Of a stretch of DNA of 57,079 nt, positions 1-37,300 are shown piece by piece. This stretch comes from Verrucomicrobiales bacterium. GTDB lineage: Bacteria; Verrucomicrobiota; Verrucomicrobiia; Limisphaerales; UBA11320. Within the stretch, counting starts at the first letter, position 1. Every line of letters begins with the position of its first letter. The stretch spans positions 1 through 57,079 of the forward strand of contig JAEUHE010000107.1 in NCBI GenBank assembly GCA_016793885.1, read 5' to 3'. Below the pieces are notes generated by a model that was not told the DNA's origin, searched no databases, and was given only the letters and a program-made list of their open reading frames with translations. The position numbers and the translations under genes are program-made.

Positions 1-150
1 GGTTCGCAACCCACGATGGGGTTGTGGATTCTATGGCGTTTTCCCCAGGGTAGCTCGTTCCTCCCAACCCTGGGCTTTGAGGCGCAATCCCGTTGGGATA
101 GGGAGGAAGCCCTCCGAACTTGTGGGTAATGCTCAGGGCACGACACCGAT
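1..150. repeat. Fragment of a palindrome-rich intergenic repeat, cut by the window edge
   Basis: No credible gene is seen here. The stretch is a string of short inverted repeats: AACCC/GGGGTT at 8-23, a stem CCCAGGGT/ACCCTGGG at 44-74 (15-nt loop), and ATCCC/GGGAT around 87-99. Such hairpin mosaics resemble dispersed non-coding repeats of Verrucomicrobiota genomes, which is an impression rather than a search result. The style matches the interior of the element at 39693-40134, which also contains short hairpins built on GAACCC/GGGTTC. The left end lies outside the window and the right boundary is approximate. Confidence 0.45.
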
Positions 151-18644: not shown

Positions 18645-20684
18645 TTAATCCAAGTATCTAAAATCCACACTGGCAAACAAGGCGTGGACCATCTCGGTCC
18701 ACTTGCTCTCCGGGGACCCCGGGCCACGCGCATGACCCAGCATCAGCCGAGTCTCGCTCTCGTTCGGCTCCCGCCCCAAGATCAGCCGGTAACAGCGCCG
18801 CAACCGGGTTGCGTCATCGTCGGGAACCTCCTTCAACAGCCGCTCCGCCGTCCGGGCGGCGCGGTCTCGAACGAAGGAATGATTGAGGAGAAACAAGGCC
18901 TGACTGGGCACCACACTGCTTTCTCGCCTTCCCGAAACCATCATCGGCGGAGGAAAGTCGAAACACTCGAAAATCTCGGGAAGCGCATTGCGAAAAACCG
19001 GCGCGTAGACACTCCGCAGGGTATCCTGATAGACAAATCCATAGTCCGCCGAGAGCTGGCGAGGGAAGGTGCGACCACCTCCATCCAGACAAAGCTCTCC
19101 GCTCGCCCACAGCATGGCATCGCGCATCTGCTCTGCCCTTAACCTTCGCCGATGGGCATGGGAAAGATACCGATTGTCAATGTCTCCCGGCGTCGCACTG
19201 CGGTAGGCAAGCTGATAAACCCGTGACAGCACAATCGATCGCACCAGCCGCTTCACGCTCCATCCTTCCGCTATGAACTGCAGCGCGAGGTGATCCAACA
19301 GCGCCGGATGAGAAGGCTCATCCCCCGTCGTTCCGAAATTATCGACGCTCCTCACCAAACCCTCGCCCATCAGCCAATACCACACTCGGTTCACAAACAC
19401 GCGGGCGGTCAACGGATTCGCCGGGTCGGCAATCCAAGCGGCCAACTCTTTACGACCGCTCTGGTGCGGTCCTGGCGCCGACACGCTGGGCCCCGAAATT
19501 CGGCGAAGGAAGCCACGCGGGACGACCTGCCCCAAGGAGTGCACACTTCCGCGCTGGTGAATGGCCAAATCCTTAGCCCCAGCCTGCTCCAGAACGGACA
19601 TCACCATGGCGCGCTTGGGTCCCTCTTTCTCCAGGCGCTTGTAAGCGGTCTCCAGGGCTTGAATCTCCCCTGCCATGGGGGCGTTGGAGTTCATCGGGGA
19701 GCCTTTCAGTGCTACCCGGTAGCATTGAATGAGCTCCTTGAGATCGCGAAGTTCACGTTCCTGACGAAGCACCGAGGCCTCCACTTCCGGGTCAAGCGGC
19801 AACGGTCGCTCGATCCATTCCGAAACGTTCGCATGCTTCAGAGATCGCACATTCTTAAGAATCCCCGCCATCGCATAATAGTCGCGGGTCGGGATCGGAT
19901 CATGCTTGTGGTCGTGACAGCGTGCGCAGGCGATCGTCTGTCCGAGGAACGCTTTGCCGATCGTCTCCAACTGCTCATCGACCACATCCATTTCCAGCTG
20001 CTGTTTGTCCTGTTCCTCTAGATTGGTGTTTCCCAGGGCGAGAAAGGTGGTCGCGATCATCTGACGACCTGCGTCCTGCCAGCCTTTCGCCTCCAGCAGG
20101 TCACCCGCCAACTGCTCAAGGATCAAGCGATCGAACGGGATGTCGCGGTTGAAGGAATCGATCAAGTAATCACGGTAGCGCCACGCCTCCTGAAAGACGA
20201 AGCCCCGCAACGTGACGGATTCCGCGTAGCGGGCCACATCCATCCAATGCCGGGCCCACTGCTCGCCGAACCGAGGCGAGGCCAGCAGCCGGTCGACAGT
20301 GCGTTCCCAAGAGTCAGGGGATCGGTCGTCGGCGAAGGCTCCCAGCTGTTCCTCGGTGGGTGGAAGCCCGGTCAGGTCGAAGTGGAGGCGTCGCAGGAGA
20401 GTGGACCGATCCGCTTCAGCTGCAGGAGTCAGCCCTCGCGACTCCAGACCCGCGAGCACAAACCGATCGATGCTTCCCCGCGGCCAGGAGACATGGGTCA
20501 CCCCCGGGAGCGTTGGAGGCACCATCGGGGCATAGGACCAGTGAATGGCGGTACTGCTCTCCGGACTGGAGCCTGCCCCGAGCCGGAAGCTTCCGAGCCA
20601 GACGCAAAACAAACTCATCGCCAGGCGACGAATGGATACCTGGCTTGCGCTCTTGGACACCGACGTGAACTGGAACCGAGTCAT
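18645..20684 (-). CDS. DUF1549/DUF1553 protein (copy A)
   Basis: 679 aa from the ATG at 20684; an upstream in-frame TTG at 20735 is less likely. A signal-like segment (MSLFCVWLGSFRLGAG) lies near the N-terminus. DUF1549 is recognised by TLLRRLHFDLTGLPPT, WARHWMDVARYAES, FDRLILEQLAGDLL and the haem-like CARCHDHKHDPIPTRDYY. DUF1553 follows with NPLTARVFVNRVWYWLMGEG, VKRLVRSIVLSRVYQLAYR, RRLRAEQMRDAMLWASGEL and SALFLLNHSFVRDRA-type sequence near the end. No separate N-terminal cytochrome domain of the PSCyt type is present. Family role unknown, presumably extracytoplasmic. The DUF1501 partner starts 4 nt after this gene's stop. Confidence 0.9.
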   Translation of the reverse strand: MTRFQFTSVSKSASQVSIRRLAMSLFCVWLGSFRLGAGSSPESSTAIHWSYAPMVPPTLPGVTHVSWPRGSIDRFVLAGLESRGLTPAAEADRSTLLRRLHFDLTGLPPTEEQLGAFADDRSPDSWERTVDRLLASPRFGEQWARHWMDVARYAESVTLRGFVFQEAWRYRDYLIDSFNRDIPFDRLILEQLAGDLLEAKGWQDAGRQMIATTFLALGNTNLEEQDKQQLEMDVVDEQLETIGKAFLGQTIACARCHDHKHDPIPTRDYYAMAGILKNVRSLKHANVSEWIERPLPLDPEVEASVLRQERELRDLKELIQCYRVALKGSPMNSNAPMAGEIQALETAYKRLEKEGPKRAMVMSVLEQAGAKDLAIHQRGSVHSLGQVVPRGFLRRISGPSVSAPGPHQSGRKELAAWIADPANPLTARVFVNRVWYWLMGEGLVRSVDNFGTTGDEPSHPALLDHLALQFIAEGWSVKRLVRSIVLSRVYQLAYRSATPGDIDNRYLSHAHRRRLRAEQMRDAMLWASGELCLDGGGRTFPRQLSADYGFVYQDTLRSVYAPVFRNALPEIFECFDFPPPMMVSGRRESSVVPSQALFLLNHSFVRDRAARTAERLLKEVPDDDATRLRRCYRLILGREPNESETRLMLGHARGPGSPESKWTEMVHALFASVDFRYLD

Positions 20685-20860
20685 GAAGCGGGGTGCGACG
20701 CTCCCTAGAGTCGCGTTTTTGTCCGAGGAGCGCAAGATCCCAAATCGTCACCCAGGTAGGGAGAGAGTCCGTTGAGCCCATCAGAGCCCCCGGCTCACGA
20801 TACCCCATGGGCGACTCCGTGAGGGCCGCCAGGCGATCGTCGCACCCCACTGCCCGATGG

Positions 20861-22855
20861 TCAGGGTGTCGCCGAGGCACCGCCCGACGCAGGCAGTCGA
20901 CTGTTTCGAAGGTAATAGAGATGCCCATCCTCCGCTCCGGCCAACAGATCCGGGACCCCATCGTTGTTCCAATCAACTGTGGTGGGGCTCACATCATGGC
21001 TAGCCACATTTCGTTGGGCCAGCTTGCCCAGGTCCTGAAACCTGACCGTGAGAGTGCTCTCGTCTTTCGCAATTTGCCGGAGCAGATTCGCGTTCTCGCC
21101 GTTCAGAAGCAGATCAAGTTTGCCGTCCCCATCCCAATCCACGAAGCACAGCTTGCGACGCCCACTTTTTCCTGCCGTACCCGCGTTGAGACGTAAAAGG
21201 TCGCCCCGCGCATCCTGAAAAAGACGCCGACCGGGATTCAGAGGGGCGTTTCTCCTGCCGCCGTCGCGCTCATACCAGGACAAGTATCCCTCGGTATCCA
21301 GCATGACCAGATCCATCCATCCGTCGCGGTTCCAGTCCACAACGCCAGGGGTGGTCCGCCACTGGGTTAACAGTTCAGCCCCCCGCGGACGCAGCCATCC
21401 CCAGGCGAGAAGCGGACTGGACTGGGCTTGGCCCCAATTCACCAGCAGGGGCTGCGAGGCGTCGAGGCGCGGACGCCGCGGGCTGCCCACGTTCCGGTAC
21501 CACACCACCCTTCCCCAGATCGAGTTGACGATCAGATCCAATCGGCCGTCCCGATCCCAATCCGCAACACTCAGCGTGGTGTAACCCCACTTTGCTTCGC
21601 ACGGACCCTGAATGGAGCCGTTTTCACCAGCCATAATGCGGATGGCTTTCCCTTGCGACGACAAGTAAACCGGCGCGGCAAACCTCGGTCGTTCCACCCC
21701 CGGTCCGCTCAAGTTTTCAAAGAATTGCAGGTAGCCGGCGGTGTTCCCGCACACGATATCCGTATCCCCGTCCGCATCCCAGTCCGCGCCCACCGGCGTG
21801 GCGAGGGCGCCACACTTCAGTTCATCCGCCTCTTGCTGAAAGTAGCGTGGCGCCAAAAACAGTGGCGTGCCCGATTTCAATCTGCCTGTGTTTTCCACCA
21901 GAGCCACCCGCCCATCTTCATCGCCCACGACCAAATCCAAATCACCATCCGAATCCCAGTCAAACGCCACGGGAACAATCATCTCCAGATCCATCCGCAA
22001 CGGCGCTCCCGTGGAAAGCCGCAGCCGGCGTCCGGCCGCGTATACCGGGGCGTTTCGAGTGCCGCGATTCTCAAAATAGGTGAACCCGTCGAGAAACTCA
22101 CCGCAGATCAGGTCGAGATCTCCATCAGAATCGAAATCCCCAAAATTGGGTGACGGACAGCCAAAGACATCCAACAGTTTGCCCCCGGCCTGCAGGGGTT
22201 GAGCCGGCTCGTAACGGGGGTCGCTGCTGGTGCCCGAATTGCGCAAAAGATAGACCACACCATGCAAGGGGCCATTGGTCCAGCGCCCCGAGCTGTCCCA
22301 GGCGTTGTCCCATCCATAGTGTCCCCAATCCTCAACTGCGATGGTTAGATCCAGCCGACCGTCTCCGTCGTAATCCACATATCTCCATTGGTTATGGCGG
22401 ATCTTCGAGACCTCAGAGCCCGGCTTGAAACGCAGCTGATGAATTTTCGCGGCCGAGGTAACCGGCAGGCTCTGCGATCGCTCCAGACCCGTGGCGACGA
22501 ACCCGGGATGTTCACTCCCGGGCGACAGCACTCGCAGCTCCCCATCAATGTAGGAGGGTGTCACATAGTGGACGGTCGAGCTCAACCGTCGAGCCGGCTT
22601 GAATACGGGGAACTTGACCGCACCCGAGGGGTTTTCGAAAAGCCACACGCCGTTATAGGGTTTGTCCGGACACGAGACAATGAGGTCCATGTCTCCGTCG
22701 TGATCAGCATCGACCGGAACAGGCCAGGCCCAGAGGCCAACGCCCAGGTCGACCACCAGCCCGGGATGATTGTAGCGAACGCGCTCCAACCCCTGAAGAT
22801 CTCGCGACCAGAGAAGCGCTGCGAGCACCAGAAGCCAGGTCGAGACGGATGTCAT
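20861..22855 (-). CDS. Exported FG-GAP/VCBS beta-propeller protein
   Basis: 664 aa. ATG at 22855 has GAGGA 9 nt upstream and is followed by a signal peptide (TSVSTWLLVLAALLWS). The whole mature protein is a string of propeller blades with calcium-type loops: DADHDGDMDLIVSCP, DYDGDGRLDLTIAVEDWG, DFDSDGDLDLICGEF, DWDSDGDLDLVVGDEDG, DWDADGDTDIVCGNT, DWDRDGRLDLIVNS, DWNRDGWMDLVML, DWDGDGKLDLLLNGE, DWNNDGVPDLLAGAEDG. Unlike the proteins at 2266 and 11884 it has no ASPIC/UnbV domain. It lies between the two DUF1553/DUF1501 pairs, 31 nt after DUF1501-B, so it is probably co-transcribed and serves as a binding component for the same substrate. Confidence 0.87.
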   Translation of the reverse strand: MTSVSTWLLVLAALLWSRDLQGLERVRYNHPGLVVDLGVGLWAWPVPVDADHDGDMDLIVSCPDKPYNGVWLFENPSGAVKFPVFKPARRLSSTVHYVTPSYIDGELRVLSPGSEHPGFVATGLERSQSLPVTSAAKIHQLRFKPGSEVSKIRHNQWRYVDYDGDGRLDLTIAVEDWGHYGWDNAWDSSGRWTNGPLHGVVYLLRNSGTSSDPRYEPAQPLQAGGKLLDVFGCPSPNFGDFDSDGDLDLICGEFLDGFTYFENRGTRNAPVYAAGRRLRLSTGAPLRMDLEMIVPVAFDWDSDGDLDLVVGDEDGRVALVENTGRLKSGTPLFLAPRYFQQEADELKCGALATPVGADWDADGDTDIVCGNTAGYLQFFENLSGPGVERPRFAAPVYLSSQGKAIRIMAGENGSIQGPCEAKWGYTTLSVADWDRDGRLDLIVNSIWGRVVWYRNVGSPRRPRLDASQPLLVNWGQAQSSPLLAWGWLRPRGAELLTQWRTTPGVVDWNRDGWMDLVMLDTEGYLSWYERDGGRRNAPLNPGRRLFQDARGDLLRLNAGTAGKSGRRKLCFVDWDGDGKLDLLLNGENANLLRQIAKDESTLTVRFQDLGKLAQRNVASHDVSPTTVDWNNDGVPDLLAGAEDGHLYYLRNSRLPASGGASATP

Positions 22856-22886
22856 CCGCCTAGTTCCTCAAAACACCAGGGCAGGA

Positions 22887-24386
22887 TCAAGCCAAGATCC
22901 GGCGGATGACCTCGGCATCGACAACGCCCGTCAGCTTCTGATCGAGGCCGCCATGGAAATAACTGAGCTTATGGTGATCGAAACCCATGAGGTGCAGTAA
23001 CGTGGCGTGAAGATCACGAATGTGGTGACGGTCCACCGCCGCCTCGTGGCCCAACTCATCCGTCTCCCCATAGCTCGTTCCTCCTTTGACCCCGCCTCCG
23101 GCCAGCCAGTACGTGAAACCCTTGGGGTTGTGATCCCGTCCTCCGTTCTCCCCCTGGGACACCGCCTGACGCCCGAATTCGCCACCCCAAACCACGACCG
23201 TGGAATCGAGCAATCCCTGCCGTTCTAAGTCGGTGAGGAGTGCCGTGATGGGACGGTCGATCTCGGGACAATGAATCTTCAGGTTCTCCTCGACTCCAAA
23301 ATGGGCATCCCAATTCTGCTGTTGATGTCCGCCGCCATGGTAGATCTGAACGAAACGCACGCCGCGCTCGACCAAACGGCGGGCGATCAGGCATTGGCGG
23401 CCGAATGGCGCCGGGCCAAGCGCCAGCGGATGGTCCTGAGGTTTGGGCTCGTTGATCCCGTAGAGATCCAGCGTTTCCTGGCTTTCCTGGCTCAGATCGA
23501 GCGCCTCCGGCGCACTGCGCTGCAGCTCGAACGCCAACTCGTAGCTCGCGACTCGCGCCTGCAGCTCGCTAAAGCCGGGACGCGATGCCAAATGCTCGGC
23601 GTTGAGCTGATTCAAGGTGTCCACCATGTCCCGCTGCATCGCCCGAGTGTGCCCCGCAGCGGAATCGAGATTGAGAATCGGGTTGCCGGCGGCCCGAAAC
23701 ACCGTGCCTTGATAGGCGGCCGGCATGAACCCACTTGACCAGTTCGTTGCTCCGCTGATCGGCCCCCCACGCGGATCCAGCATCACGACATACCCGGGGA
23801 GATTCCGATTGGTGGTGCCCAGTCCGTAGTTCAACCACGATCCGAGGGATGGCCAGCCTTGGAGCACTCTCCCGCTGTTCATCTGGATCATCGCCGACCC
23901 ATGGGCGAAGGAATCGGAATAGAGAGCTTTCACCACGGCCAGCTTGTCCATCTGGGACGACAGTAGCGGCAGAGCGTCCGAGCACCATTGTCCCGATTGC
24001 CCAAACTGCCGGAACGTGCGCTTCGACCCTAGCAGGGTCCCGGGTTTCACGTCCCTTCGACGCTGCTCAAGGTTGGCGGTCTGGCCGTGACGCCGATTCA
24101 ACTCAGGCTTGTAGTCGAAGAGGTCCATCTGGGACGGACCGCCATACATGAACAGAAAGATGCAGGCTTTGGCGGGAGCCGGACGATGCGGCGGGCGCGG
24201 GGCCAAAGGTTCCGACCGGAGCCCGGCGGCCACCGCTCTCGATCCGAAAAAACCATCGGCGTCGAGCAGCCCAGTCAGGGCCAACCCTCCAAAACCTGCT
24301 CCCATCTGCCAGAGAAATTCTCGCCGATTTCCGGCACAGAGCCGCCTCTTCCACGGCTGTTCGGGGTGCATCGCGTCAATCGACAT
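22887..24386 (-). CDS. DUF1501 protein, Tat-exported (copy B)
   Basis: 499 aa from the ATG at 24386, preferred because GAGGTGG lies about 6 nt upstream; it overlaps the end of the DUF1553 gene by 11 bp. The twin-arginine signal is NRREFLWQMGAGFGGLALTG. Family motifs: FLFMYGGPSQMDLFDYKPEL, GWPSLGSWLNYGLGTTNRNL, FVQIYHGGGHQQQNWDAH, VVWGGEFGRQAVSQGENGG, GRDHNPKGFTYWLAGGG. It is a divergent paralogue of copy A with the same motif order. As in copy A, it follows its DUF1553 partner directly, so the pair is a conserved unit. Biochemical function unknown. Confidence 0.9.
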   Translation of the reverse strand: MSIDAMHPEQPWKRRLCAGNRREFLWQMGAGFGGLALTGLLDADGFFGSRAVAAGLRSEPLAPRPPHRPAPAKACIFLFMYGGPSQMDLFDYKPELNRRHGQTANLEQRRRDVKPGTLLGSKRTFRQFGQSGQWCSDALPLLSSQMDKLAVVKALYSDSFAHGSAMIQMNSGRVLQGWPSLGSWLNYGLGTTNRNLPGYVVMLDPRGGPISGATNWSSGFMPAAYQGTVFRAAGNPILNLDSAAGHTRAMQRDMVDTLNQLNAEHLASRPGFSELQARVASYELAFELQRSAPEALDLSQESQETLDLYGINEPKPQDHPLALGPAPFGRQCLIARRLVERGVRFVQIYHGGGHQQQNWDAHFGVEENLKIHCPEIDRPITALLTDLERQGLLDSTVVVWGGEFGRQAVSQGENGGRDHNPKGFTYWLAGGGVKGGTSYGETDELGHEAAVDRHHIRDLHATLLHLMGFDHHKLSYFHGGLDQKLTGVVDAEVIRRILA

Positions 24387-27150
24387 AAGCCACCTCATTC
24401 AGGTTCATCAACAGGAGCGCCAAGCTTTCCAAGGCACGCCGCGTCGGGTTGGTTTCCGTGTGGGGCTCCCGCACCTCGCGGATTTCGCTCTCGGTTTTAA
24501 CCCGAACCTGGTCCAGTTCCACGCCGGCGCCCCAAACGCGAACCCCGAAGAAACCGGACCGTTTCAGAGGGTCAACATCCCGCCCCTCGAGGACAACGGC
24601 GTTTGGCCCGTCGCCGACGCGCACCGCAAACGCAGCGCCGGACCAAGCCCAGTGAAGCCGGGTGTCCTGGTCGCTGGGAAGCGCCACGGAGGCGGTCTTC
24701 AACACCACGGTCTGTCCGGGACTGACACGACGAAGCTCCACCCGATTCTCCCGGAGCAGGAACTTGAGTTCGTAGCCCGTATCCAGGCCTCCCTCCGATT
24801 TCGACCTTGTCAGCAGGCTGAAGCTCTCGCAGGCGGATTTCGGGGCAACCAGGCAATCTAGGGTCCCATCGGCAAACGACAGCGATTCCCAGAGGCCGAA
24901 GGGCCCCCGCCCCGGTTCCATGTTGCGATTTCCCTCATACTCGCGCGGCCAGCTGCCCTTCGAGTAACTCCACCCTAGCGCGGGACCCAATAGGAATTTG
25001 CTCGCCGGAAGTTTGTTGAAGTAACCAGTGGACAGCGTATCGGGGACATCCGGGCGAAAGAGCAGCCGAGCGGCACGTTCGCGATGCACTTCCTCCTGTC
25101 GCTCCAGAAATGCAAGCGAGCTAGCGCGCTCCGACCCGGTGGGCGGCCGGCCCACAACCGCGTGCCAAGCCTCTTCCACCCATCGGCCGCGGCCGCCTCG
25201 GGGGCCGGCGGCGTCCTCGCGAAGCAGCCGATTCGCCAAGGCCGTCGCCTGTTCCTGCACAAACCGATCGTTGATCATCAGCAACGCTTGAGGCGCGACC
25301 GTGGTGGTCGGGCGCTCCCCCAAGGGAGAGCTGACATTGCTGTAGTCGAAGAGTTCGAAGATCGGCGGCATGGAACTCCGCCGAATAAAGCTGTAGATGC
25401 TGCGACGCGCCAACTCGGAGTCAGAGGATACTTCCCAGTCCGTTCCCGGACGAGACCCGCCGGCCAGCACTTCTCCGCTGAGATACGGAAAAAAACCGCG
25501 TCCCCCCGGTGCCAGGTTCAGCCGGCCGCTGATTTGCAGGAGGGTATCGCGCAAGGACTCGACATCCAGCCGGCGAAGCGGATGCCGCCACCACAGCTCA
25601 TTCCCAGGATCCGCCGCCAACGCGGCCGGGTTTTCACCACGCGACGAACGACGCCAGGTCTGGGAGGTCAAAATAAGCCGATGCAGGTGCTTGATCGACC
25701 ATCCGGAGTCGATGAACTCGCAGGCCAGCCAATCCAGCAGCTCAGGATGGCTGGCTCGAAACCCGGCGCGCCCAAAATCCAGGGTGCTCTTCACCAAACC
25801 CTGGCCAAAATGATAATGCCAAATGCGGTTCACCATCACCCGGGCGGTCAACGGATTTCCGGGACTGGCGATCCATTCGGCCAACTCGAGTCGTCGCAGC
25901 GACGGCTCCGAGCTCCATCCTGGTTGCGCTTCGCACAACTGAGTAACGCGGATGGCGGCCGGGAAACTCGGGAGGACCACATCGCCCGGGCTTCTTGGAT
26001 TGCCGCGCATCAGGACCCGAACCTCAGGCCAGGCATCGTCGCGCTCGCGCGCGGCCAGGGCATGGTCAAAGGGCGGAAGCGCTTCCTCGGCTTGTTTGAG
26101 CCGCTCCTTCAGCTTCTGCCGCTCAGCATCGTCGACCGCCGAGGCAATCGATCGCTTCAACCCGGCCATGACTTTCTCCTGCCCCTGACGCCAGCTGGCA
26201 AGCTCCTCGGGTGTCGCCAGCGGTGCGTAGACAGCCGAGTCCGGAACCAACCCAGGCTTCCCCGGCGAACGCAGCCCCCGAAAGAAGGACAGCAGCGAAT
26301 AATAGTCCTTCTGCGAAAGAGGATCGAACTTGTGATCGTGACACCGGGCGCAGTTCAAAGTCAGCCCCAGGAAGGCGGCGCCGGTGGTTCCGACAATGTC
26401 ATCCAGGGCGTCATATTCGGCCAGAACCTTGTCGTCCGGCTCATCATCCATCACTCCCAAGTGCAAGAACCCGGTGGCCACCCACAGCCGCTGCCAGTCC
26501 TCCGAGGACGGCTTTCCCGACTGCGCGGCACGCCGGGCGATGACGTCGCCAGCGAGTTGCTCCCGCACGAATTGGTCATAGGGCTGGTCCTGGTTAAAAC
26601 TGCGGATGACATAATCCCGATATCGCCAGGCGAACAGCTTTTCCGGATCCCGCTCGTAACCGTTGCTCTGAGCGAAGCGAACCACGTCCAGCCAGTGCCT
26701 GGCCCACCGTTCTCCGTACTGCGGTGCCGACAGAAAGCGATCGACACTCTGTCTCCAGCGGAGGTCCGTCGGCTCTCTCTGAAAAGCCTCCAACTCCTCC
26801 ACCTTCGGGGGCAACCCCAGCAGGTCGTAGCTGAGGCGTCGCAGGAGATCGCGGGGGGTGGCGATGGAGTTGGGCTGCAGCCCGGCTTCCCGAAGCCGGG
26901 CGTCGATAAAGGCATCGATGGGATGCACGCCGGTGGAACCGGTGATCCGCGGAGGGTGCGGCCGCGTCAAGGGGCGGAAGGCCCACCAGGTCGCCTCGTT
27001 CGTCACCCCCCCGTTCCCGCGAGCCCACAATTCGCTCATCACCCCTCCCAGCAAGACCACGATGCCAAGGCAAGCCCTCAACCGCCGCCAGCTCAATTCA
27101 AGGCGGGAGGAGCCAGATCTCTTCAGAGACTTATCACCGGAATTATGCAA
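24376..27150 (-). CDS. DUF1549/DUF1553 protein with an inserted lectin-like domain (copy B)
   Basis: 924 aa; the first codon used here (27150) is a TTG and the true start may differ slightly. An export signal-like stretch is LRACLGIVVLLGGVMS. DUF1549 motifs: DLLRRLSYDLLGLPPK, WARHWLDVVRFAQSNGYERD, CARCHDHKFDPLSQKDYYSL. DUF1553 motifs: NPLTARVMVNRIWHYHFGQG, IKHLHRLILTSQTWRRSS, RRLDVESLRDTLLQISGRL. The C-terminal part is unusual: about 180 residues (roughly 700-885) lie between the family's penultimate helices and its closing helix LESLALLLMNLNEVAYVD. The insert has beta-sandwich character (WESLSFADGTLDCLVAPKS, FGVRVWGAGVELDQVRVK) like concanavalin-type or DUF1080-like domains. Copy A lacks it. 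First gene of the minus-strand block. Confidence 0.87.
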   Translation of the reverse strand: MHNSGDKSLKRSGSSRLELSWRRLRACLGIVVLLGGVMSELWARGNGGVTNEATWWAFRPLTRPHPPRITGSTGVHPIDAFIDARLREAGLQPNSIATPRDLLRRLSYDLLGLPPKVEELEAFQREPTDLRWRQSVDRFLSAPQYGERWARHWLDVVRFAQSNGYERDPEKLFAWRYRDYVIRSFNQDQPYDQFVREQLAGDVIARRAAQSGKPSSEDWQRLWVATGFLHLGVMDDEPDDKVLAEYDALDDIVGTTGAAFLGLTLNCARCHDHKFDPLSQKDYYSLLSFFRGLRSPGKPGLVPDSAVYAPLATPEELASWRQGQEKVMAGLKRSIASAVDDAERQKLKERLKQAEEALPPFDHALAARERDDAWPEVRVLMRGNPRSPGDVVLPSFPAAIRVTQLCEAQPGWSSEPSLRRLELAEWIASPGNPLTARVMVNRIWHYHFGQGLVKSTLDFGRAGFRASHPELLDWLACEFIDSGWSIKHLHRLILTSQTWRRSSRGENPAALAADPGNELWWRHPLRRLDVESLRDTLLQISGRLNLAPGGRGFFPYLSGEVLAGGSRPGTDWEVSSDSELARRSIYSFIRRSSMPPIFELFDYSNVSSPLGERPTTTVAPQALLMINDRFVQEQATALANRLLREDAAGPRGGRGRWVEEAWHAVVGRPPTGSERASSLAFLERQEEVHRERAARLLFRPDVPDTLSTGYFNKLPASKFLLGPALGWSYSKGSWPREYEGNRNMEPGRGPFGLWESLSFADGTLDCLVAPKSACESFSLLTRSKSEGGLDTGYELKFLLRENRVELRRVSPGQTVVLKTASVALPSDQDTRLHWAWSGAAFAVRVGDGPNAVVLEGRDVDPLKRSGFFGVRVWGAGVELDQVRVKTESEIREVREPHTETNPTRRALESLALLLMNLNEVAYVD

Positions 27151-27364: not shown

Positions 27365-30300
27365 ATGAGAATCCATCCTGTGCACCAAACATGGCGGGCG
27401 GCTGACCCTGGGAGCCGCTGCAGCGACTGGGCCGTATTCCTTTGGTTTGCCTGCTTTTGGGCCTGGCTTTGCTGCTGCAGCTCGACCTTAGCAGCTCAGC
27501 TACCACCGAAGGCCAACGCCCAAATCGAGGCTCTTCAAGCGGAGAAAGCCAACCGCACGCTGTCTCAAAAAAAACTCGACTCACAATTCCTCTACGCCTG
27601 CCGTGAGCATCGCGGGGAGCGAATCGCCCCGGGGCTCGAAAAATTACGATCGCAAGTTCGCCACCGAAAAGGAGATCGGGTGCTGGCCGACGTGCGCGCC
27701 GAGGTTACCCCCCGCCTGCTCGAGGCGCTGCGCGCCGGCGGAGCCACGGTGCTCAACAGCTACCCCCAGCATCGAACCTTGCGGGCGTGGATCCCGCTGC
27801 CTCTCCTCGAGCCGCTGGCCGAACTGGGAGAGGTGGACAAAATTCAGCCTGGGGCCGAGGCCACCACGAACGTGGGTTCGGTGACCTCACAGGCCGACGC
27901 CACCCACCTGGTCGCCGCTGGTCGCAAGGCCTACGAACTCGACGGCCAAGGCGTCAAGATCGGCGTGCTCTCCGACGGTGTGACTTACCTGGCGGAGTCT
28001 CAGGCTCGGGGGGATTTGCCCGCGGTCACCATCCTTCCCGGCCAAGCCGGCGTCTCCGATACCGGTGAGGGAACCGCCATGCTGGAGCTGATCCACGACC
28101 TGGCCCCAGGGGCCGAACTGTACTTCGCCACCGCTTTCGCCAGCGCCGCGTCCTTCGCCGAAAACATCCGCAGTCTGCACGCTGCTGGATGTCGGATCAT
28201 TGTGGACGACGTGACCTATTTTGATGAGTCCCCCTTCCAGGATGGAATCATCTCCCAAGCCGTCAATGATGTCTCGGCCGCGGGAACTCTCTATTTCTCT
28301 TCCGCCGGAAATTCTGGAAACAAAAATGACGGCACCTCCAGCGTTTGGGAGGGGGATTTTCAGGACGGTGGGGCGGCTTCGATCGGCCGCGGCGGAAGGC
28401 TGCACAGTTTCGGGAGCAGCACGGTCAACCCTCTCCTGCCGGGAGGAGGTTTTCGCCGGGTGGATCTTCACTGGAATGATCCGCTGGGCAAATCAGGCAA
28501 CGACTACGACGTTTATGTGCTGGATCCGGCCGGCAATGTGGTGGCGAGTTCCAGCAATGTTCAGAATGGCAATGACGACCCGTACGAATCCATCGGCACG
28601 CTGGGCACCGGGGATCGTATCGTTGTGGTGAAGTTTGCCGGCGCAGCTCGGTATCTCCGGTTGTCGGCCGGACGGGCTTACCTGACCCATTCGACTCCCG
28701 GGATCACGTTCGGCCACAATGCCTCAGGCGCCAGCAATGCGTTTTCCGTCGCGGCGACGTGGGTGCGCTCCGGTGCGGCTCCTTTCGTAGGAGGATCCGT
28801 AAACCCGGTCGAAACCTTCAGCTCAGGAGGGCCGCGACGGATGTTCTACCATCCGGACGGCACGGAGCTCACGCCGGGAAATCTCACCTCGAGCGGCGGC
28901 ATCGTTCTGCAGAAGCCGGACATCACCGCGGCTGACGGGGTCTCGACTTCGGTGCCGGGCTTCGAAACCTTCTTTGGCACCTCCGCTGCCGCACCACATG
29001 CCGCTGCCATCGCCGCACTGCTGTGGTCCTACAATCCCTCCCTCAGCCCGACCGAGGTCCGAGCTGCTCTCCTGCAGACGGCCTTGGACATCGAGGCACC
29101 AGGCCCGGACGTCGATTCCGGCGCAGGCATCGTCATGCTGCCAGCCGCCATCGAGGCGGCGGCGACGCCCCCTCCCAAGCTGTTGGTGGATGGCGCCCTG
29201 GTGTCCGAGGGAAACAACAATGGACTGGTGGACGCCAACGAGTGCAATCGATTGTTCATTTCGTTACGCAACGGAATCGGAGCAAACGGGGGGACCGCCC
29301 GGGACATTCAGGTCAGCCTGAGAAGCCTCACCGCGGGAGTCACGGTGGATCCTGCTCCCGTCAGCTTCCCGGACATTCCAGCCAGCGAAAGCCGCACCAA
29401 TGGTGCCCCGTTTTCCCTCGCCAGCAGTGCATCCTTCGTTTGCGGTTCAGGGGTCGAGCTGGAACTCTCGATCAGAAGCAGCAATGCCGGGGTTGTCACC
29501 CGCACGGTGCATCTGGATTCTCCCGCTCCCGCCACGGGGCCGGCCCAAGAATTCGCCTCTCAGGAGATCCCGCGGGCGGTTCCGGACGGAGGAGTTACCG
29601 ATTCAGCGGTCAGCGTCTCGGGAATCACCGTGCCGTTGGCGCGGGTCCAGGTGTCCCTGCACCTCCAGCATGCGTACGTCTCGGATCTGATCTTGAGTCT
29701 GATCGGCCCCGATGGGACGGAGGTCGAGCTTTCCAATCGCAATGGGAATGGCGGCCAGAATTATGGAACGTCGTGTTCCGCGAGAACTGTTTTCGAGGAT
29801 ACCTCCTCGAACGAGCTGGTGTTTGGCACCGCTCCCTTTGTTGGCACCTTCCGGCCGCAGAGTCCGTTAAGCCGCTTCCAGGGCAAGAGTGGAAGCCAGG
29901 TGAACGGGACCTGGATGCTCCGAGTTCGGGATGTGGCGGAACCTGACACCGGAACCATCCAATGCTGGTCGCTCATCTTGAGTCCGATCGAGTGCTTGGA
30001 TGGTGGAGGTGCCTGTTTCGCGCCACCTGCGATCGTCAGCCAACCGCTGCCCGTCACCACCACCAACGGCTATCCAGCCAGCTTCCGAGCCACGGTCACC
30101 GGGACGGCGCCGTTGGCTTATCAGTGGTTTTACCAAGCGACCAACCCGGTCTCTGCGGCGCTCACGGACACCCTGACGTTCAGCGCGGTGAATCCAAACC
30201 TCGCTGGATTCTATTCCCTCGTGGCTACCAACCGGTACGGAGCGGCAACGAGTTCACCCGTCGCCTTGACCGTGCTGCTTCCCCCTTCCATCGTTGCCCA

Positions 30301-33300
30301 GCCTGAGTCGGTGAGTCCTACCAATGGTGGCAGTGCGACGTTTACGGTGCTCGCGACGGGCACCGCTCCGCTCGCGTATCAGTGGTTCCGCGGCGCACAG
30401 CTCCTGCCCAGTGCCACCAGCGCCACGCTGGTCATCCCTAGTGTGACGCTTGCCGATAGCGGCTCGTACACTGTGCGAATCACCAACCCCTATGGGACGG
30501 TTCTGAGCACACCGGCCAGCCTCGCGGTGGTTGCCCCCCCGGTGTTCGTGACTCAGCCCAGGGGCGCAGTGACCAATCCCGGTGCCCAGGTCACTTTAAG
30601 CGCGCTCGTGGAAGGGTCGGCCCCAATCGACTATCAATGGTTTTTCAATGAGGATACTCCGATTGCGGGTGCCACCAACGCCTCGCTCACTCTCCATAAT
30701 CTCACCTCCGTCCAAAGCGGGGCCTACTCCCTCCTGGCTACCAACCCATACGGACGAGCGGTCAGCGACCAGGCTATCCTGGAGGTGAGGATGCCCAATC
30801 AGCTACCCACGATCTCCCTGCTAAGCCCCCTCAACGGAGCGGCCTACGTCGCCTCTAACCTCCCGATCATCCTATCCGCATCGGCCAACGATGCGGATGG
30901 CACCGTCCAGAAGGTGCGCTACTCCGTCAACGGGCTCGCCTTGGCCGAATCCACCATTTCCCCGTATAGTTTCGAATGGGTGGATCCCACTCCCGGCACC
31001 CACGTCCTCGAGGCCGTGGCGGTGGACGACCGAAACCAAAGCAGCCAGCCGGCGGCGGTGCAGTTCACCGTCACCTACCCGGCCTCAGCGGCGCTTCGCC
31101 TGGTCTCCGCGGGCTCGGTCTGGCGCTACCTCGACGACGGGTCGGACCAGGGCACGAATTGGTCCGCTCTAGGGTTCAACGATCAGTCCTGGCCTGCGGG
31201 GCCGGCCGAATTGGGATACGGGGATGCTGCTCAAGGGCGTCCGGAGGCGACGCTGCTGAACTTCGGCCCCGCGGCCAATTCTAAGCACATCACCTACTAT
31301 TTCCGAAAAACGTTTACGCTCGCGGACGCAGGCGCCTATACCAACCTGCAGTTCCGACTGATGCGCGACGATGCCGCGCGGGTCTACCTAAATGGGCAGG
31401 AGATGTACCGGGTCAATCTCCCCGAGGGGGAAGTCGATTACCTCACGCTCTCGACCGCGAACGTGAACGGAAGTGCGGAATCCCAATTCTTTGCCACCAA
31501 CGCCAGCCCGGGCTTCCTGCAGGACGGCACCAATTTGGTGGCGGTCGAGATCCATCAGGAAAACCGGAACAGCTCCGACATCAGCTTTGACCTCGAGCTC
31601 AATGGGATTCGGAATCCAGCCCCTCGCCTGCTCGCCCACCCCGAGGATACCACGGTCGATGCCGGCCTGGCCGCCGAGTTTACCGTGAGCGCACGCGGGG
31701 CCACCCCGCTGAGCTACCAGTGGTACTTTCGCGGAGACACCCGACTCAACCAGGCAACCGGTTCCGTGCTGACGCTGCCCGCGGTAACCACCAATCAGTC
31801 GGGGCTTTACTCCGTCGTGGTGTCCAATGCATTCGGATCCATCACCAGCGCCCCCGCCCGCCTCGTCGTCGTACCCGTCTTTGTGAACCAGCCGCCTACC
31901 GTGACGCTGACCAGCCCGGAACCCCAGGCGAACGTGACCAGTGATCAGCTTCCGCTCCGGATTTCCGCCTCCGCTGTGGATCCAGAAGGCCAGCCTCTGC
32001 GCGTCGAGTTCTTGGCCGATGGCGCAGTACTCGCAAGCCTCACGGCGCCGCCGTATGAAATCGAATGGGTGGATCCTACTCCGCAAATCCACTCGATCTG
32101 GGCCATCGCCACCGACGAGCAAGGCCTGTCGGTAACGTCCGCCGTCGCCCAAGTGCGTGTGGACCTGGCTGCGTCAGGGTATTACCGGCTTCTGAAACTT
32201 GGCTCGGTGTGGAAATACAACGATCGAGGCCTCGACCTGGGGACCGAGTGGAGATCGCTGGATTACGATGACCGCGACTGGGCGGAGGGCCCAGCCGAGC
32301 TGGGCTACGGGGATGCGGCTGAAGGACGTCCGGAAGCCACCCTCATCCAATCGGGGAGCACCGCGACGCAGAAACATCCAACTGCCTATTTCCGCCGGGC
32401 GGTAGTGATTTCCGACGCCTCCGCCTTGAGCGAGGTTCGGCTCTCGCTGCAGCGGGATGACGGGGCTGCTGTTTACCTCAATGGACAGGAGATCCTCCGC
32501 GAGAACCTGCCTGCGGGCGACCTGAGCTTCACAAACCTCGCGGTGACCACCATCGGTGGCGCGGCCGAGACGAATCTGGTGGTAAACATCCTTCCCAGCG
32601 CTCCACTTAGAAACGGCCTCAACGTTCTGGCGGTGGAGATGCATCAGGTCAACCGAACCAGCACCGATCTCAGCTTCGATCTGCAACTCGAAGCCCTCCG
32701 CCTGCCGCTACCTCAAATCACGGAGCAACCTCGCGATCTGACTGTCACGAACGGAGCCACCGCACTCTTCAGCGTTACCGCCACCGGGAGCCAACCGCTC
32801 AGCTATCAGTGGCAGCGCGAGGAGGGTATCCCTCTCCCGGGTCAGACCGAACGAACCCTCCGACTCAATTCGGTCACCATCGCCGACTCCGGAGTCTATC
32901 GTTGCGTGGTGTCGAACGCGTTTGGCTCGGTGTCGAGCTCGAACGCGGTACTGACCGTGGTTGACCCAGCGCTGAACAAGCCGCCGGTCGTAACCCTGAA
33001 TGCCCCCGCTGACGGCGCGATCTTCGACCTGGGGCAACCCATCTCGCTGCAGGCGACCGCTACCGATCGGGACGGTCAAATCACCCGCGTCGAATTCTGG
33101 GCGGGTGGCAGTCGAATTGCGGCCGACACCGATGCCCCCTATGCGGTTTCCTGGCAACCGAACCTGCCGGGTGAGTATCAACTCGCAGCACTCGCCACGG
33201 ACAACTTTGGCAAGCTGGGAACTTCCGCCCCCGTCAGAGTCAGCGTGATCGTCCCGACGCGATTTACCACCTCGTTGGTAAGCACCGGCTCCATCTGGAG

Positions 33301-35893
33301 GTACCTGGATACCGGCGTCGACCAAGGGAATACTTGGCGCCGTGCTGACTTCAATGACCAAGGCTGGCCCTTAGGACGAGCGATTCTCGGCTACGGCAAC
33401 GCCCCGAAGGGGCGTCCCGAGTCCACGGTGCTGAGCTTCGGAGACGACCCGAACAACCGATATCCCACCTACTACTTCCGGAGAACCTTCGTGGTTACCA
33501 ATACAGCCAGCATCTCCCGGTTGGAGTATGCACTGCTTCGGGACGACGGCGCCGCCATTTACCTGAATGGAACCAGGGTGGTGCGCGACAACCTTCGCGC
33601 CGGGGGTGTGACCTTCAATCTGTTGGCTTCCACCCCCGTGGTTGACGGAGACGAAACACGCTACTTCACCAACGAGACGGCCACGGCGCAGTTGGTCAAC
33701 GGGACCAACACCCTCGCGGTCGAGGTGCATCAAGTCAGTCGCACGAGTGACGACCTGGCCTTCGACCTGGGATTGACCGCGATCTTGAACACTCCTCCCG
33801 TGATCCTGAGTCAGCCCGATTCCTTGACGGTCACGAACGGCGACCCCGCGAGCTTTAGAGTCATCGCGGTCGGAACCGGAACGCTCACCTACCAGTGGTT
33901 CTTCAATGGCGTCGCGATCAACAACGCGACCGCAGCCAGCCTCAACTTCGCCGCCGTGGGAACCAATCGTGCCGGAGTTTACTCGGTGAACGTCCGGAAC
34001 AACCTCGGCACCACGCGGAGCTCCAATGCCACGCTCCGCGTGGTCGTTCCTCCCCCGAATCTCCGACCCGAGGTCGCCCTGCTCACCCCGACGAACGGAG
34101 CGACCTTCCTCCAGACGGAAACCATTGGCCTCACGGCTTCCGCGAACGACCCCGATGGAAGCGTCGCGTTTGTCGACTTCTACGCCGGGACCACCGCTCT
34201 AGGGCGCGTGCTGCAGCCGCCCTATCTGTTCGATTGGCGCAATGCTCCGACCGGATTCGTAACCCTTCGAGCGCTGGCCGTCGACAACCGGGGAGCGACC
34301 AATCTTTCCGCACCCGCCACCATCCTTGTCCGCCCGCTGCCCGCACCCCCTACCCTGGACGTGACCCTCATCTCCACCGGAGCCGTCTGGAAATACCTAG
34401 ACACGGGAGTCGACCAAGGCACGGCTTGGAAGGAGCCGGATTTCGATGATGGCTCCTGGCCATCCGGTCCCGCGGAACTAGGATATGGAGACACCACCGA
34501 AGGGCGGCCCGAGGCGACGGTCTTGGAGTTCGGCGGCGTCGCGAATCGCAAGCATATCACCTACTATTTCCGTCAGTCATTCCTTCTGGAGAACAGCGGC
34601 GGCTTCAGCAACCTGACCGTGCATCTGATGCGAGACGACGGCGGAGTGGTATATCTCAATGGCACCGAGGTGTTCCGCAGCAATTTGCCCACCGGAGCGG
34701 TGATCTTCAGCACGCTGGCCAGCGGCGCCGTCAACAAACTCAACGAGAGCACCTTCTTCACCAATAACATCGATCCGAGCCTGCTTCGTAACGGGACTAA
34801 CTGGGTCGCGGTGGAGATACATCAGTCAGCTCCGGAATCCTCGGATATCAGTTTCGACCTGGCGCTCACCGGAATTCGGTTCAGCAGTCCCATCATCATC
34901 ACCCAACCGCGCGACCTCAGCGTGTCGGCCGGCAGCCGAGCCGAGTTTTCCGTCACCGCGGTGGGGGCTCCTCCCCTGAGCTACCAGTGGTATGCCAACC
35001 GGCTGAACCTGATCCCCGATGCCACCAATTCCAGCTTGATCATTCCCTCCGCCAACACCGCCGACGAAGGAAACTATTCCGTGGTGGTCTCCAACCCGCA
35101 GGGCCAGGTGCGTAGCAGCTCCGCCATTCTGGAGGTCCTCAGCTCTCCCACCATACTGTCCCAGCCGCGAAGCCAGACCGTCGATGTCGGCGGCACGGCA
35201 GAGTTCACGGTGGAAGCCGTCGGAACTCCCGATCTCGTCTATCAATGGTTTTACAACGGGAACACGGCGCTGAGTGGGGCCACCAATGCCACGTTGCGAC
35301 TGCAGAATGTCCAGCCCTTGAACGCGGGCAGGTATTCGGTCCGGATCTCGAACCCGGTGGGGACTACCAATAGCTCCCCTGCGACGCTCACCGTCGCGAA
35401 TGGCAACGTTCCGGTGGCCGTGGTGACGCAGCCGCAGGATGTCACTATCAACAACGGGGATTCTGCCGCGTTTACGGTAACCGCCAGCGGCACCGCACCC
35501 ATCAGATACCAATGGTTCTTCAACGCGACTACGCCCCTCGCTGGGGCAACGAATTCGACACTGACCCTAACGACACCCACCCTGGCACAAAGCGGTCTTT
35601 ACTCGGTGCGACTGACCAATGCATTCGGTTTCGCCACCAGCTCTCTGGCGGAACTGCGCATTTTGGTGAAGCCAACCATCACCTCGCTGAGCCTGTCCAA
35701 TCAGCGTGTTACCCTGACGTTCAGCAGTCTGAACCGTCTGCGCTACACGGTCGAATCGAAACCCATCCTGTCCCCGTCACCCTGGGTGCCGGTTCCCGGC
35801 GCCACTCAACTCAAGGGTACCGGTGCCGGGATTGTGGTGTCCGACCCCAACCCGGCCACCGGCATCCGATTCTATCGCATTCTCGCAGAGTGA
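27365..35893 (+). CDS. Giant exoprotein: sedolisin/subtilisin-like protease, P-domain, Ig-like and jelly-roll repeats
   Basis: 2842 aa with an N-terminal signal (DWAVFLWFACFWAWLCCCS). A pro-region is followed by a serine-peptidase domain (about 190-595): GVKIGVLSDGV with Asp204, SDTGEGTAMLELIHDLAPGA with Glu235 and Asp245, FSSAGNSG with Asn316, and FFGTSAAAPHAAAIAALL with Ser540. Glu at the usual His position suggests the S53-like group. A proprotein-convertase P-domain lies at about 727-875. Then come three Ig-like domains, with a unit of Ig-like + bacterial Ig-like (ISLLSPLNGA-type) + galactose-binding-like jelly roll repeating four times at ~363-residue intervals. Three more Ig-like domains (each with a YQWF-type motif) and the C-terminal module ending FYRILAE close the protein. 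Probably a secreted, surface-associated protease with adhesive repeats. Substrate unknown. Confidence 0.85.
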   Translation: MRIHPVHQTWRAADPGSRCSDWAVFLWFACFWAWLCCCSSTLAAQLPPKANAQIEALQAEKANRTLSQKKLDSQFLYACREHRGERIAPGLEKLRSQVRHRKGDRVLADVRAEVTPRLLEALRAGGATVLNSYPQHRTLRAWIPLPLLEPLAELGEVDKIQPGAEATTNVGSVTSQADATHLVAAGRKAYELDGQGVKIGVLSDGVTYLAESQARGDLPAVTILPGQAGVSDTGEGTAMLELIHDLAPGAELYFATAFASAASFAENIRSLHAAGCRIIVDDVTYFDESPFQDGIISQAVNDVSAAGTLYFSSAGNSGNKNDGTSSVWEGDFQDGGAASIGRGGRLHSFGSSTVNPLLPGGGFRRVDLHWNDPLGKSGNDYDVYVLDPAGNVVASSSNVQNGNDDPYESIGTLGTGDRIVVVKFAGAARYLRLSAGRAYLTHSTPGITFGHNASGASNAFSVAATWVRSGAAPFVGGSVNPVETFSSGGPRRMFYHPDGTELTPGNLTSSGGIVLQKPDITAADGVSTSVPGFETFFGTSAAAPHAAAIAALLWSYNPSLSPTEVRAALLQTALDIEAPGPDVDSGAGIVMLPAAIEAAATPPPKLLVDGALVSEGNNNGLVDANECNRLFISLRNGIGANGGTARDIQVSLRSLTAGVTVDPAPVSFPDIPASESRTNGAPFSLASSASFVCGSGVELELSIRSSNAGVVTRTVHLDSPAPATGPAQEFASQEIPRAVPDGGVTDSAVSVSGITVPLARVQVSLHLQHAYVSDLILSLIGPDGTEVELSNRNGNGGQNYGTSCSARTVFEDTSSNELVFGTAPFVGTFRPQSPLSRFQGKSGSQVNGTWMLRVRDVAEPDTGTIQCWSLILSPIECLDGGGACFAPPAIVSQPLPVTTTNGYPASFRATVTGTAPLAYQWFYQATNPVSAALTDTLTFSAVNPNLAGFYSLVATNRYGAATSSPVALTVLLPPSIVAQPESVSPTNGGSATFTVLATGTAPLAYQWFRGAQLLPSATSATLVIPSVTLADSGSYTVRITNPYGTVLSTPASLAVVAPPVFVTQPRGAVTNPGAQVTLSALVEGSAPIDYQWFFNEDTPIAGATNASLTLHNLTSVQSGAYSLLATNPYGRAVSDQAILEVRMPNQLPTISLLSPLNGAAYVASNLPIILSASANDADGTVQKVRYSVNGLALAESTISPYSFEWVDPTPGTHVLEAVAVDDRNQSSQPAAVQFTVTYPASAALRLVSAGSVWRYLDDGSDQGTNWSALGFNDQSWPAGPAELGYGDAAQGRPEATLLNFGPAANSKHITYYFRKTFTLADAGAYTNLQFRLMRDDAARVYLNGQEMYRVNLPEGEVDYLTLSTANVNGSAESQFFATNASPGFLQDGTNLVAVEIHQENRNSSDISFDLELNGIRNPAPRLLAHPEDTTVDAGLAAEFTVSARGATPLSYQWYFRGDTRLNQATGSVLTLPAVTTNQSGLYSVVVSNAFGSITSAPARLVVVPVFVNQPPTVTLTSPEPQANVTSDQLPLRISASAVDPEGQPLRVEFLADGAVLASLTAPPYEIEWVDPTPQIHSIWAIATDEQGLSVTSAVAQVRVDLAASGYYRLLKLGSVWKYNDRGLDLGTEWRSLDYDDRDWAEGPAELGYGDAAEGRPEATLIQSGSTATQKHPTAYFRRAVVISDASALSEVRLSLQRDDGAAVYLNGQEILRENLPAGDLSFTNLAVTTIGGAAETNLVVNILPSAPLRNGLNVLAVEMHQVNRTSTDLSFDLQLEALRLPLPQITEQPRDLTVTNGATALFSVTATGSQPLSYQWQREEGIPLPGQTERTLRLNSVTIADSGVYRCVVSNAFGSVSSSNAVLTVVDPALNKPPVVTLNAPADGAIFDLGQPISLQATATDRDGQITRVEFWAGGSRIAADTDAPYAVSWQPNLPGEYQLAALATDNFGKLGTSAPVRVSVIVPTRFTTSLVSTGSIWRYLDTGVDQGNTWRRADFNDQGWPLGRAILGYGNAPKGRPESTVLSFGDDPNNRYPTYYFRRTFVVTNTASISRLEYALLRDDGAAIYLNGTRVVRDNLRAGGVTFNLLASTPVVDGDETRYFTNETATAQLVNGTNTLAVEVHQVSRTSDDLAFDLGLTAILNTPPVILSQPDSLTVTNGDPASFRVIAVGTGTLTYQWFFNGVAINNATAASLNFAAVGTNRAGVYSVNVRNNLGTTRSSNATLRVVVPPPNLRPEVALLTPTNGATFLQTETIGLTASANDPDGSVAFVDFYAGTTALGRVLQPPYLFDWRNAPTGFVTLRALAVDNRGATNLSAPATILVRPLPAPPTLDVTLISTGAVWKYLDTGVDQGTAWKEPDFDDGSWPSGPAELGYGDTTEGRPEATVLEFGGVANRKHITYYFRQSFLLENSGGFSNLTVHLMRDDGGVVYLNGTEVFRSNLPTGAVIFSTLASGAVNKLNESTFFTNNIDPSLLRNGTNWVAVEIHQSAPESSDISFDLALTGIRFSSPIIITQPRDLSVSAGSRAEFSVTAVGAPPLSYQWYANRLNLIPDATNSSLIIPSANTADEGNYSVVVSNPQGQVRSSSAILEVLSSPTILSQPRSQTVDVGGTAEFTVEAVGTPDLVYQWFYNGNTALSGATNATLRLQNVQPLNAGRYSVRISNPVGTTNSSPATLTVANGNVPVAVVTQPQDVTINNGDSAAFTVTASGTAPIRYQWFFNATTPLAGATNSTLTLTTPTLAQSGLYSVRLTNAFGFATSSLAELRILVKPTITSLSLSNQRVTLTFSSLNRLRYTVESKPILSPSPWVPVPGATQLKGTGAGIVVSDPNPATGIRFYRILAE
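30535..34880 (+). repeat. Four tandem ~1.09-kb coding repeats within the giant exoprotein
   Basis: Each unit encodes an Ig-like domain, a bacterial Ig-like domain and a jelly-roll domain. The marker G-S/A-V/I-W-R/K-Y at the start of each jelly roll falls at 31112, 32201, 33287 and 34379, so the spacing is 1089, 1086 and 1092 nt, always a whole number of codons. The jelly-roll copies share AELGYGDAAQGRPEATLL, YLNGQEM-type and LVAVEIHQ-type motifs but are clearly diverged, so the duplication is not recent. Confidence 0.85.
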
Positions 35894-35971: not shown

Positions 35972-37300
35972 ATGAATGCATTGGATTCCACAACGGCGCC
36001 AAGATGGCACTTCACCAACTCGCTCGCCGATCTCCGCTGTGTCCTGGGGATCGCCGCCCTCTCGCTCTCGCTCGCCGGAGGACTCCAGGGTGCCGCCTCA
36101 GCGCACTGGCCGGCGTGGCGCGGGCCAGATTCCAATGGGAGCACCGCCGTGGGCAAACACCCCGTCAAGACCGGCACCAATGCCTTGGCCTGGAAAGTGG
36201 CTCTCCCCGGCAAAGGAGGCTCCTCTCCTATCGTGTGGGACGGTCGCATCTTCCTCACCACCCCGGCCGAAGGAATGGACGCGGTGCTCTGCCTCGATAC
36301 TTCGGGACAACAGCAATGGCTCACCAAGGTCGGCCCCGAAAGCCCGCCCAAGCATCGGACCCTCGGATCAAGCTGCAACTCATCGCCCGTCACGGACGGC
36401 AAAGGGATTTTCGCTTACTTCCGCAGCGGACATCTGGTGGCGCTTGAGCGCGACGGCTCCATCCGATGGAAGATCAACTTGAGTGAGAAATTTGGCACGG
36501 AGCAGCTGTTTTGGGATCAAGGCAGCTCGCCCGTGCTGAACGGTTCCCACGTCATTTTGTCCCGACTCCATCAAGGCGAGTCCTGGATCGCAGCCTTTCA
36601 TAAGGACACCGGCGTCATGGAATGGAAGGAACCCCGTAACTTCAAGGTGCCCAACGAGAATGACAATGGTTACACCACCCCGGTCCTATTCGACCATTCG
36701 GGATCGAAAGCGCTGCTCGTCTGGGGAGCCGATCATCTGACAGCTCACTCGGCGACCGATGGAAAGCTGCTCTGGTCCGCAGGTGGATTTAATCCCGACG
36801 CCACGCCTTATTGGCCGGCGATCTCCACCCCCGTCATCGCCAACGGCATCGCCGTGGTTCCGGTCGGACGTGACGATCGGCCGCGCCAAGCCCAGCTTCA
36901 GGGAATCAAGCTGGGTGGCTCCGGAGATGTCTCCGCTACTCACCGGGCGTGGAAACGGGATGACCTGGGAGTGTTCGTGACCGCGCTTGCCGAGTACGGC
37001 GGGCGAGTCTATCTCCTGCGCCATCGCGGAGAGATCGTCTGCCTGAACCCCGCCACCGGACAGACGGTCTGGAGCGAAGCTCTACCGAAGGATCGAGCCC
37101 CGTTCTATGCCTCCCCGCTCATCGCGAATGGAGTGCTCTACGCGGCCCGGGAGGACGGCGTTCTGTTCAGCGCCAAAGTAGGGGATAAGTTTGAGTTCCT
37201 GGGCGAAACACCGCTCGGCGAGCGGGTGGTTTCCTCGCCGGTGCCCGCAGGTGATACGCTGCTTGTCCGAGGTGACAAACACCTCTTCTGCCTCCGCTAA
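35972..37300 (+). CDS. Exported PQQ-type beta-propeller protein
   Basis: 442 aa. ATG at 35972 with AGGA upstream; signal peptide CVLGIAALSLSLAGGLQGAAS. The mature protein opens with HWPAWRGPDSNGST, typical of PQQ-like propeller proteins of Planctomycetes and Verrucomicrobia. It then shows repeated eight-bladed-propeller tryptophan-docking motifs: NALAWKVALPGKGGSSPIVW, VLCLDTSGQQQWLTKV, LVALERDGSIRWKINL, IAAFHKDTGVMEWKE, LTAHSATDGKLLWSAGG, IVCLNPATGQTVWSEALP. There are no calcium or quinone-binding catalytic residues of a true alcohol dehydrogenase that I can identify, so it is more likely a scaffold or binding protein (BamB-like fold) than an enzyme. Its stop overlaps the convergent downstream gene by 4 bp. 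Confidence 0.85.
   Translation: MNALDSTTAPRWHFTNSLADLRCVLGIAALSLSLAGGLQGAASAHWPAWRGPDSNGSTAVGKHPVKTGTNALAWKVALPGKGGSSPIVWDGRIFLTTPAEGMDAVLCLDTSGQQQWLTKVGPESPPKHRTLGSSCNSSPVTDGKGIFAYFRSGHLVALERDGSIRWKINLSEKFGTEQLFWDQGSSPVLNGSHVILSRLHQGESWIAAFHKDTGVMEWKEPRNFKVPNENDNGYTTPVLFDHSGSKALLVWGADHLTAHSATDGKLLWSAGGFNPDATPYWPAISTPVIANGIAVVPVGRDDRPRQAQLQGIKLGGSGDVSATHRAWKRDDLGVFVTALAEYGGRVYLLRHRGEIVCLNPATGQTVWSEALPKDRAPFYASPLIANGVLYAAREDGVLFSAKVGDKFEFLGETPLGERVVSSPVPAGDTLLVRGDKHLFCLR

Follow-up and report, generated by a model that had tools for sequence, protein, structure and literature searches.

Serine proteases of the subtilisin fold have been divided into two groups, S8 and S53 (Denesyuk et al. 2024; PMC11593635). 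In S8, the catalytic acid is located on a segment of its own, whereas in S53 the Glu and the Asp share one helix at positions i and i+4, and the oxyanion hole contains an Asp; the position of subtilisin Ser125 is designated CHO3 by the same authors (PMC11593635). In the S53 enzyme kumamolisin, Asp164 acts as a protonated donor in QM/MM calculations and the wild-type optimum is at pH 2-4, in line with the need of the S53 oxyanion Asp for protonation (PMC5935664). The protease family described here fits neither group, as it combines the base of S53 with the Asn of S8, has no acid at either of the two known places and carries an invariant Asp at CHO3. We read the protease head of the protein as an active, autoprocessed carboxyl-serine protease with a subtilisin fold, a Ser540-Glu235-Asp282 triad and Asn316 in the oxyanion hole, and we assign this reading a probability of roughly 0.6.

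The gene occupies positions 27365 to 35893 on the plus strand of the window, i.e. the whole stretch of 57,079 nucleotides that was analysed, and its open reading frame and Pfam matches define a secreted protein of 2842 amino acids; all features given below are on the same strand. Residues 1 to 44 (27365-27496) contain a hydrophobic stretch, recognized by eye, which is a probable signal peptide. An AlphaFold model of residues 43 to 617 (pLDDT 93.9) revealed a subtilisin fold for the catalytic part (Z about 33), preceded by a prodomain at approximately residues 104 to 167 (27674-27865) that aligns with the propeptide of pro-subtilisin E. The model also contains a low-confidence link at residues 172 to 174, beyond the prodomain, which represents the probable processing region. 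Based on the model and on hhalign, the first half of the catalytic domain spans residues 168 to 320 (27866-28324), while the model and Pfam place the second half at residues 453 to 600 (28721-29164). In between, the model and the alignment delimit a β-rich domain of approximately residues 321 to 452 (28325-28720), in which Trp370 is invariant and an NDYD motif nearly so, and which perhaps provides a metal or substrate site. The Pfam match to Peptidase_S8 (PF00082) covers residues 237 to 587 (E 3.5e-15) and begins after the Asp and His blocks. No Pfam match to the Pro-kumamolisin activation domain (PF09286) was found in the protein or elsewhere in its own genome.

Homologues of the protease are distributed over many bacterial phyla. 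When one genome per species was scanned, 285 relatives were identified, 80 of which were kept, and three more were found on plasmids. Conservation was assessed on 102 sequences, which correspond to 94 distinct ones at 95% identity and represent more than ten named phyla, including Verrucomicrobiota, Acidobacteriota, Pseudomonadota, Bacteroidota, Thermodesulfobacteriota, Cyanobacteriota, Nitrospirota and Bacillota; many of these sequences come from metagenome bins and individual phylum placements may therefore be wrong. Within the same genus, a copy is present in all four genomes searched, and the family occurs in 10 of 58 related genomes when the own one is counted, while it is patchy in the wider phylum sample (11/288). 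The own genome encodes a paralogue (L002, G000:C179:208393-209709) with 66% identity in an open frame of 3132 residues, and contains 13 Peptidase_S8 matches at E 1e-25. Viral contigs yielded a single partial relative. The plasmid pB of Chroococcidiopsis carries the N-terminal part of the protease family alone, annotated as a short 'hypothetical protein', which is probably a truncated remnant. Several relatives of approximately 600 residues stop directly after the protease, and this stand-alone form indicates that the enzyme is independent of the Ig-like tail.

The relationship of the family to S8 and S53 was analysed by profile comparison and by a phylogenetic tree. The family scores 138 against the S8 profile and 72 against the S53 profile. 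In a maximum-likelihood tree based on 274 columns, S8 (35 sequences), S53 (14) and the family (28) form three clades with SH-aLRT values of 95, 100 and 99, respectively, and one branch with a support of 95 places the family together with S53 on one side and S8 on the other; this branching order is tentative in view of the long branches and of an S8 sample drawn largely from related genomes. Thus, the domain belongs to neither S8 nor S53 but represents a separate, third clade within the subtilisin fold. This agrees with the first-pass annotation in so far as it had assigned the domain to an S53-like group between the two families, while the S53 analogies that it attached to this assignment, a partner Asp245 and an acid pH optimum, were not supported. 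The absence of S53 chains among the best 50 structural matches of the full model is not evidence against kinship. At NCBI, the domain would probably be assigned to the CDD entry cd05562 (Peptidases_S53_like), to which the first-pass annotation alludes.

The residues of the putative active site were located in the window at the places given by the first-pass annotation. Glu235 (28067-28069), Asn316 (28310-28312) and Ser540 (28982-28984), the latter within an FGTSAAAPH motif, are each present in 102/102 relatives, and since these relatives share roughly 34-75% identity, the conserved pattern is not a matter of chance. Other side chains identical throughout the set include Ser203, Asp281, Asp282 and Trp370. 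The earlier proposal that a Glu replaces the catalytic His is borne out, because Glu235 corresponds to subtilisin position 64. A joint MAFFT alignment of the family (28 sequences) with S8 (35) and S53 (14) misaligned the base helices of the two known groups against that of the family, and the equivalence of Glu235 and His64 therefore rests on hhalign, on the correspondence between the EGT and HGT motifs, and on the start of the helix: Glu235 begins helix 193-204 of the model, the place that subtilisin His64 and kumamolisin Glu78 take in their own helices. The oxyanion column of the joint alignment contains Asp in all 14 S53 sequences, but Asn in all 102 family members, and Asn316 is thus a residue of the S8 type.

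The loss of His64 raises the question of whether another histidine serves as base or whether catalysis has been lost altogether. His181, His451 and His545 are all frequent in the family, yet the domain has no invariant histidine, as these three are found in 91, 97 and 97 of the 102 relatives, respectively; an alternative base histidine was accordingly rejected, and we consider this the least probable of all readings. An inactive pseudoprotease or binding module would be in line with the missing His64 and with the presence of the inactive CspC among the top Foldseek matches. Pseudoproteases, however, normally drift at Ser540, the oxyanion Asn316, Glu235 and Asp282, which are invariant here across many phyla, and the prodomain with its flexible junction has been retained; a loss of catalysis is therefore improbable. 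From the sequences, the protease domain is probably catalytic, although invariant residues are not in themselves proof of catalysis, and a carboxyl-serine chemistry of Glu, Asp and Ser, as suggested in the first-pass annotation, is the best reading of its conserved residues.

Identifying the acid that would complete the triad depends on the mapping of the surrounding segments. When the family was aligned with the S8 profile by hhalign, GVKIGVLSDG was placed un-gapped opposite GVKVAVLDTG, and GCRIIVDDVT opposite GMHVANLSLG, which equates Ser203 with position 32, Glu235 with 64 and Asp282 with 125. In the joint MAFFT alignment, the Ser203 column contains Asp in 33/35 S8 sequences, and the Asp282 column contains Ser in 35/35 S8 and 14/14 S53 sequences. 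An AlphaFold fragment of residues 196 to 285 (pLDDT 96.8) aligns over its full length (1..90) with residues 25..128 of subtilisin BPN' and 25..131 of kumamolisin-As, and the offsets at the fragment ends again match Ser203 with position 32 and Asp282 with subtilisin 125 and kumamolisin 128, presuming that the last few residues at both ends are free of gaps. The three methods thus give concordant results. That this fragment ranks kumamolisin-As (Z 8.2) above the subtilisins (Z up to 6.2) is not robust, as other kumamolisin chains score only about 4.9-5.3.

Ser203 (27971-27973), which takes the position of Asp32 in subtilisin and of Glu32 in kumamolisin, is conserved in 102/102 relatives. The subtilisin-type Asp landmark had been assigned to Asp204 (27974-27976), but in all alignments this residue falls on position 33, shifted by one from Asp32, and its equivalence to Asp32 was rejected. 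Asp204 could still bend into the active site and act as the acid for Glu235 in the order Asp-Glu-Ser, for it is an Asp in 99/102 relatives and the model places it where the appropriate strand ends; three otherwise normal relatives, however, have Asn instead. In furin, the Asp at position 33 lines the S2 pocket, and this counterpart speaks against a catalytic function as well. A catalytic Asp204 is hence unlikely, and the residue probably has an S2-pocket or structural role. The three relatives with Asn (L039, L041 and L057) are acidobacterial, and two of them also contain Gln in place of His545.

The first-pass annotation had combined Glu235 with a nearby Asp245 (28097-28099) in a sedolisin-like manner, a reading in which the two would pair on one helix. 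The acid of S53 indeed shares a helix with the base, and Asp245 is an Asp in 95/102 relatives. Yet the S53 acid is located at base+4, where the protein has Met239 (28079-28081) and all 102 relatives have Met, Ile or Leu, whereas Asp245 is at base+10, and seven relatives carry Ala, Thr, Asn, Lys or Glu in its place. Due to this lack of conservation, Asp245 was rejected as the partner, and such a pair has hardly any likelihood. The earlier annotation was therefore right about the base and the nucleophile but wrong about the acid, and it missed a better candidate, Asp282.

Asp282 is part of an Asp281-Asp282 pair (28205-28210) in which both residues are invariant (102/102), and it immediately follows strand 278-281 of the model, at the position of subtilisin Ser125 and kumamolisin Ser128. 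In PCSK9, position 125 is a Pro, the CG of which is 3.0 A away from the carboxylate of the catalytic Asp (PMC11593635, Table 4), indicating that the side chain of residue 125 can reach the acid site. With this geometry and the small Ser at position 32, a carboxylate at position 125 could replace the acid, and by this analogy Asp282 may have taken over its place. The equal invariance of Asp281 counts against a choice of Asp282. Asp281 (28205-28207) maps to subtilisin residue 124, where a side chain is expected to face away from the active site.

For the preferred Ser540-Glu235-Asp282 triad, the following mechanism can be proposed. Ser540 would act as nucleophile and Glu235 as general base, while Asp282, provided by the strand that bears Ser125 in subtilisin, would serve as the acid partner of Glu235; Ser203 in place of the former Asp32 would leave room for it. 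The oxyanion hole would be formed by Asn316 and the amide of Ser540 in the subtilisin fashion, and the prodomain would be cut by the enzyme itself. We infer the contact between Asp282 and Glu235, the enzymatic activity and the self-cleavage of the prodomain from the combination of fold, residue positions and conservation. The acid pH optimum that had been predicted by analogy to S53 is not implied, since the family has the S8-type Asn in its oxyanion hole, where S53 has Asp. The low pI of the catalytic domain, about 4.6, is not decisive for the pH dependence. A broader reading, to which we give somewhat less than even odds, is that the family represents a third working triad, in which the acid and Ser125 are swapped (Ser for Asp32 and Asp for Ser125) and combined with a Glu base and an Asn oxyanion hole, yielding a carboxyl-serine protease that is capable of working at neutral pH and is present in many bacterial phyla.

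The family shares with S8 the fold, a subtilisin-like propeptide, the GTSAAAPH nucleophile motif, the Asn oxyanion residue and the best profile score. Different from S8, it lacks Asp32, His64 and Ser125, having Ser at position 32 and Glu at position 64 in 102/102 sequences, and it falls outside the S8 clade in the tree, within the limits of a small sample and high divergence. With sedolisin and kumamolisin, it shares the Glu base at the start of a short helix, the absence of Asp at position 32 and an AP motif equally far after the Glu. In contrast to S53, it lacks both an Asp at Glu+4 and a match to the Pro-kumamolisin propeptide, its oxyanion hole contains Asn where S53 has Asp, and its Ser125 position is occupied by an Asp.

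In 2007, Siezen, Renckens and Boekhorst reportedly predicted a subset of subtilases that resembles the sedolisins and has a Glu base and a catalytic Asp on a β-strand in a topologically similar place. The family resembles this subset in that Glu235 and Asp282 are invariant and the Asp is not on the base helix but at strand 278-281. The family is likely to be identical with this subset, and we therefore regard the protein as a well-supported representative of a known class that has been little studied, not of a new one. The more specific assignment of the acid to subtilisin position 125, together with a Ser at position 32, may already be part of the 2007 work. Sequence searches found no family member among solved structures, and no biochemical study of a member was found. 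One relative is automatically annotated as 'S8 family serine peptidase', a label that hides the chemistry in databases. If the reading of Asp282 is true, the catalytic carboxylate of a single fold would be found on any of three segments, i.e. on a strand of its own in S8, on the base helix in S53 and on the Ser125 strand here, and the shift from His-based to Glu-based serine catalysis would become directly testable.

Downstream of the catalytic domain, Pfam identified a proprotein-convertase P-domain (PF01483) at residues 759 to 871 (29639-29977). It is followed by nine Ig-like domains, four Big_7 domains and four WRYLDxGxDxG modules (30032-35674; Pfam and motif search). The fusion of the protease to repeats is thus confirmed by Pfam, while the term 'adhesive', which the first-pass annotation used for them, is derived from the Ig-like domains alone. 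The four modules, with the consensus W[RK]Y[LN]DxGxDxG, are located at residues 1253, 1616, 1978 and 2342 (about 31121-34391), and their period of approximately 363 residues forms, together with the Ig-like domains, a long higher-order repeat. The neighbouring genes are located at positions 18645-27150 and 35972-37300 of the window. Upstream of the protease gene, the other strand encodes two PSCyt2/PSD1 (DUF1549/DUF1553) proteins, a DUF1501 protein and an FG-GAP protein, and a PQQ-propeller gene in the same orientation as the protease gene starts 78 nucleotides downstream of it.
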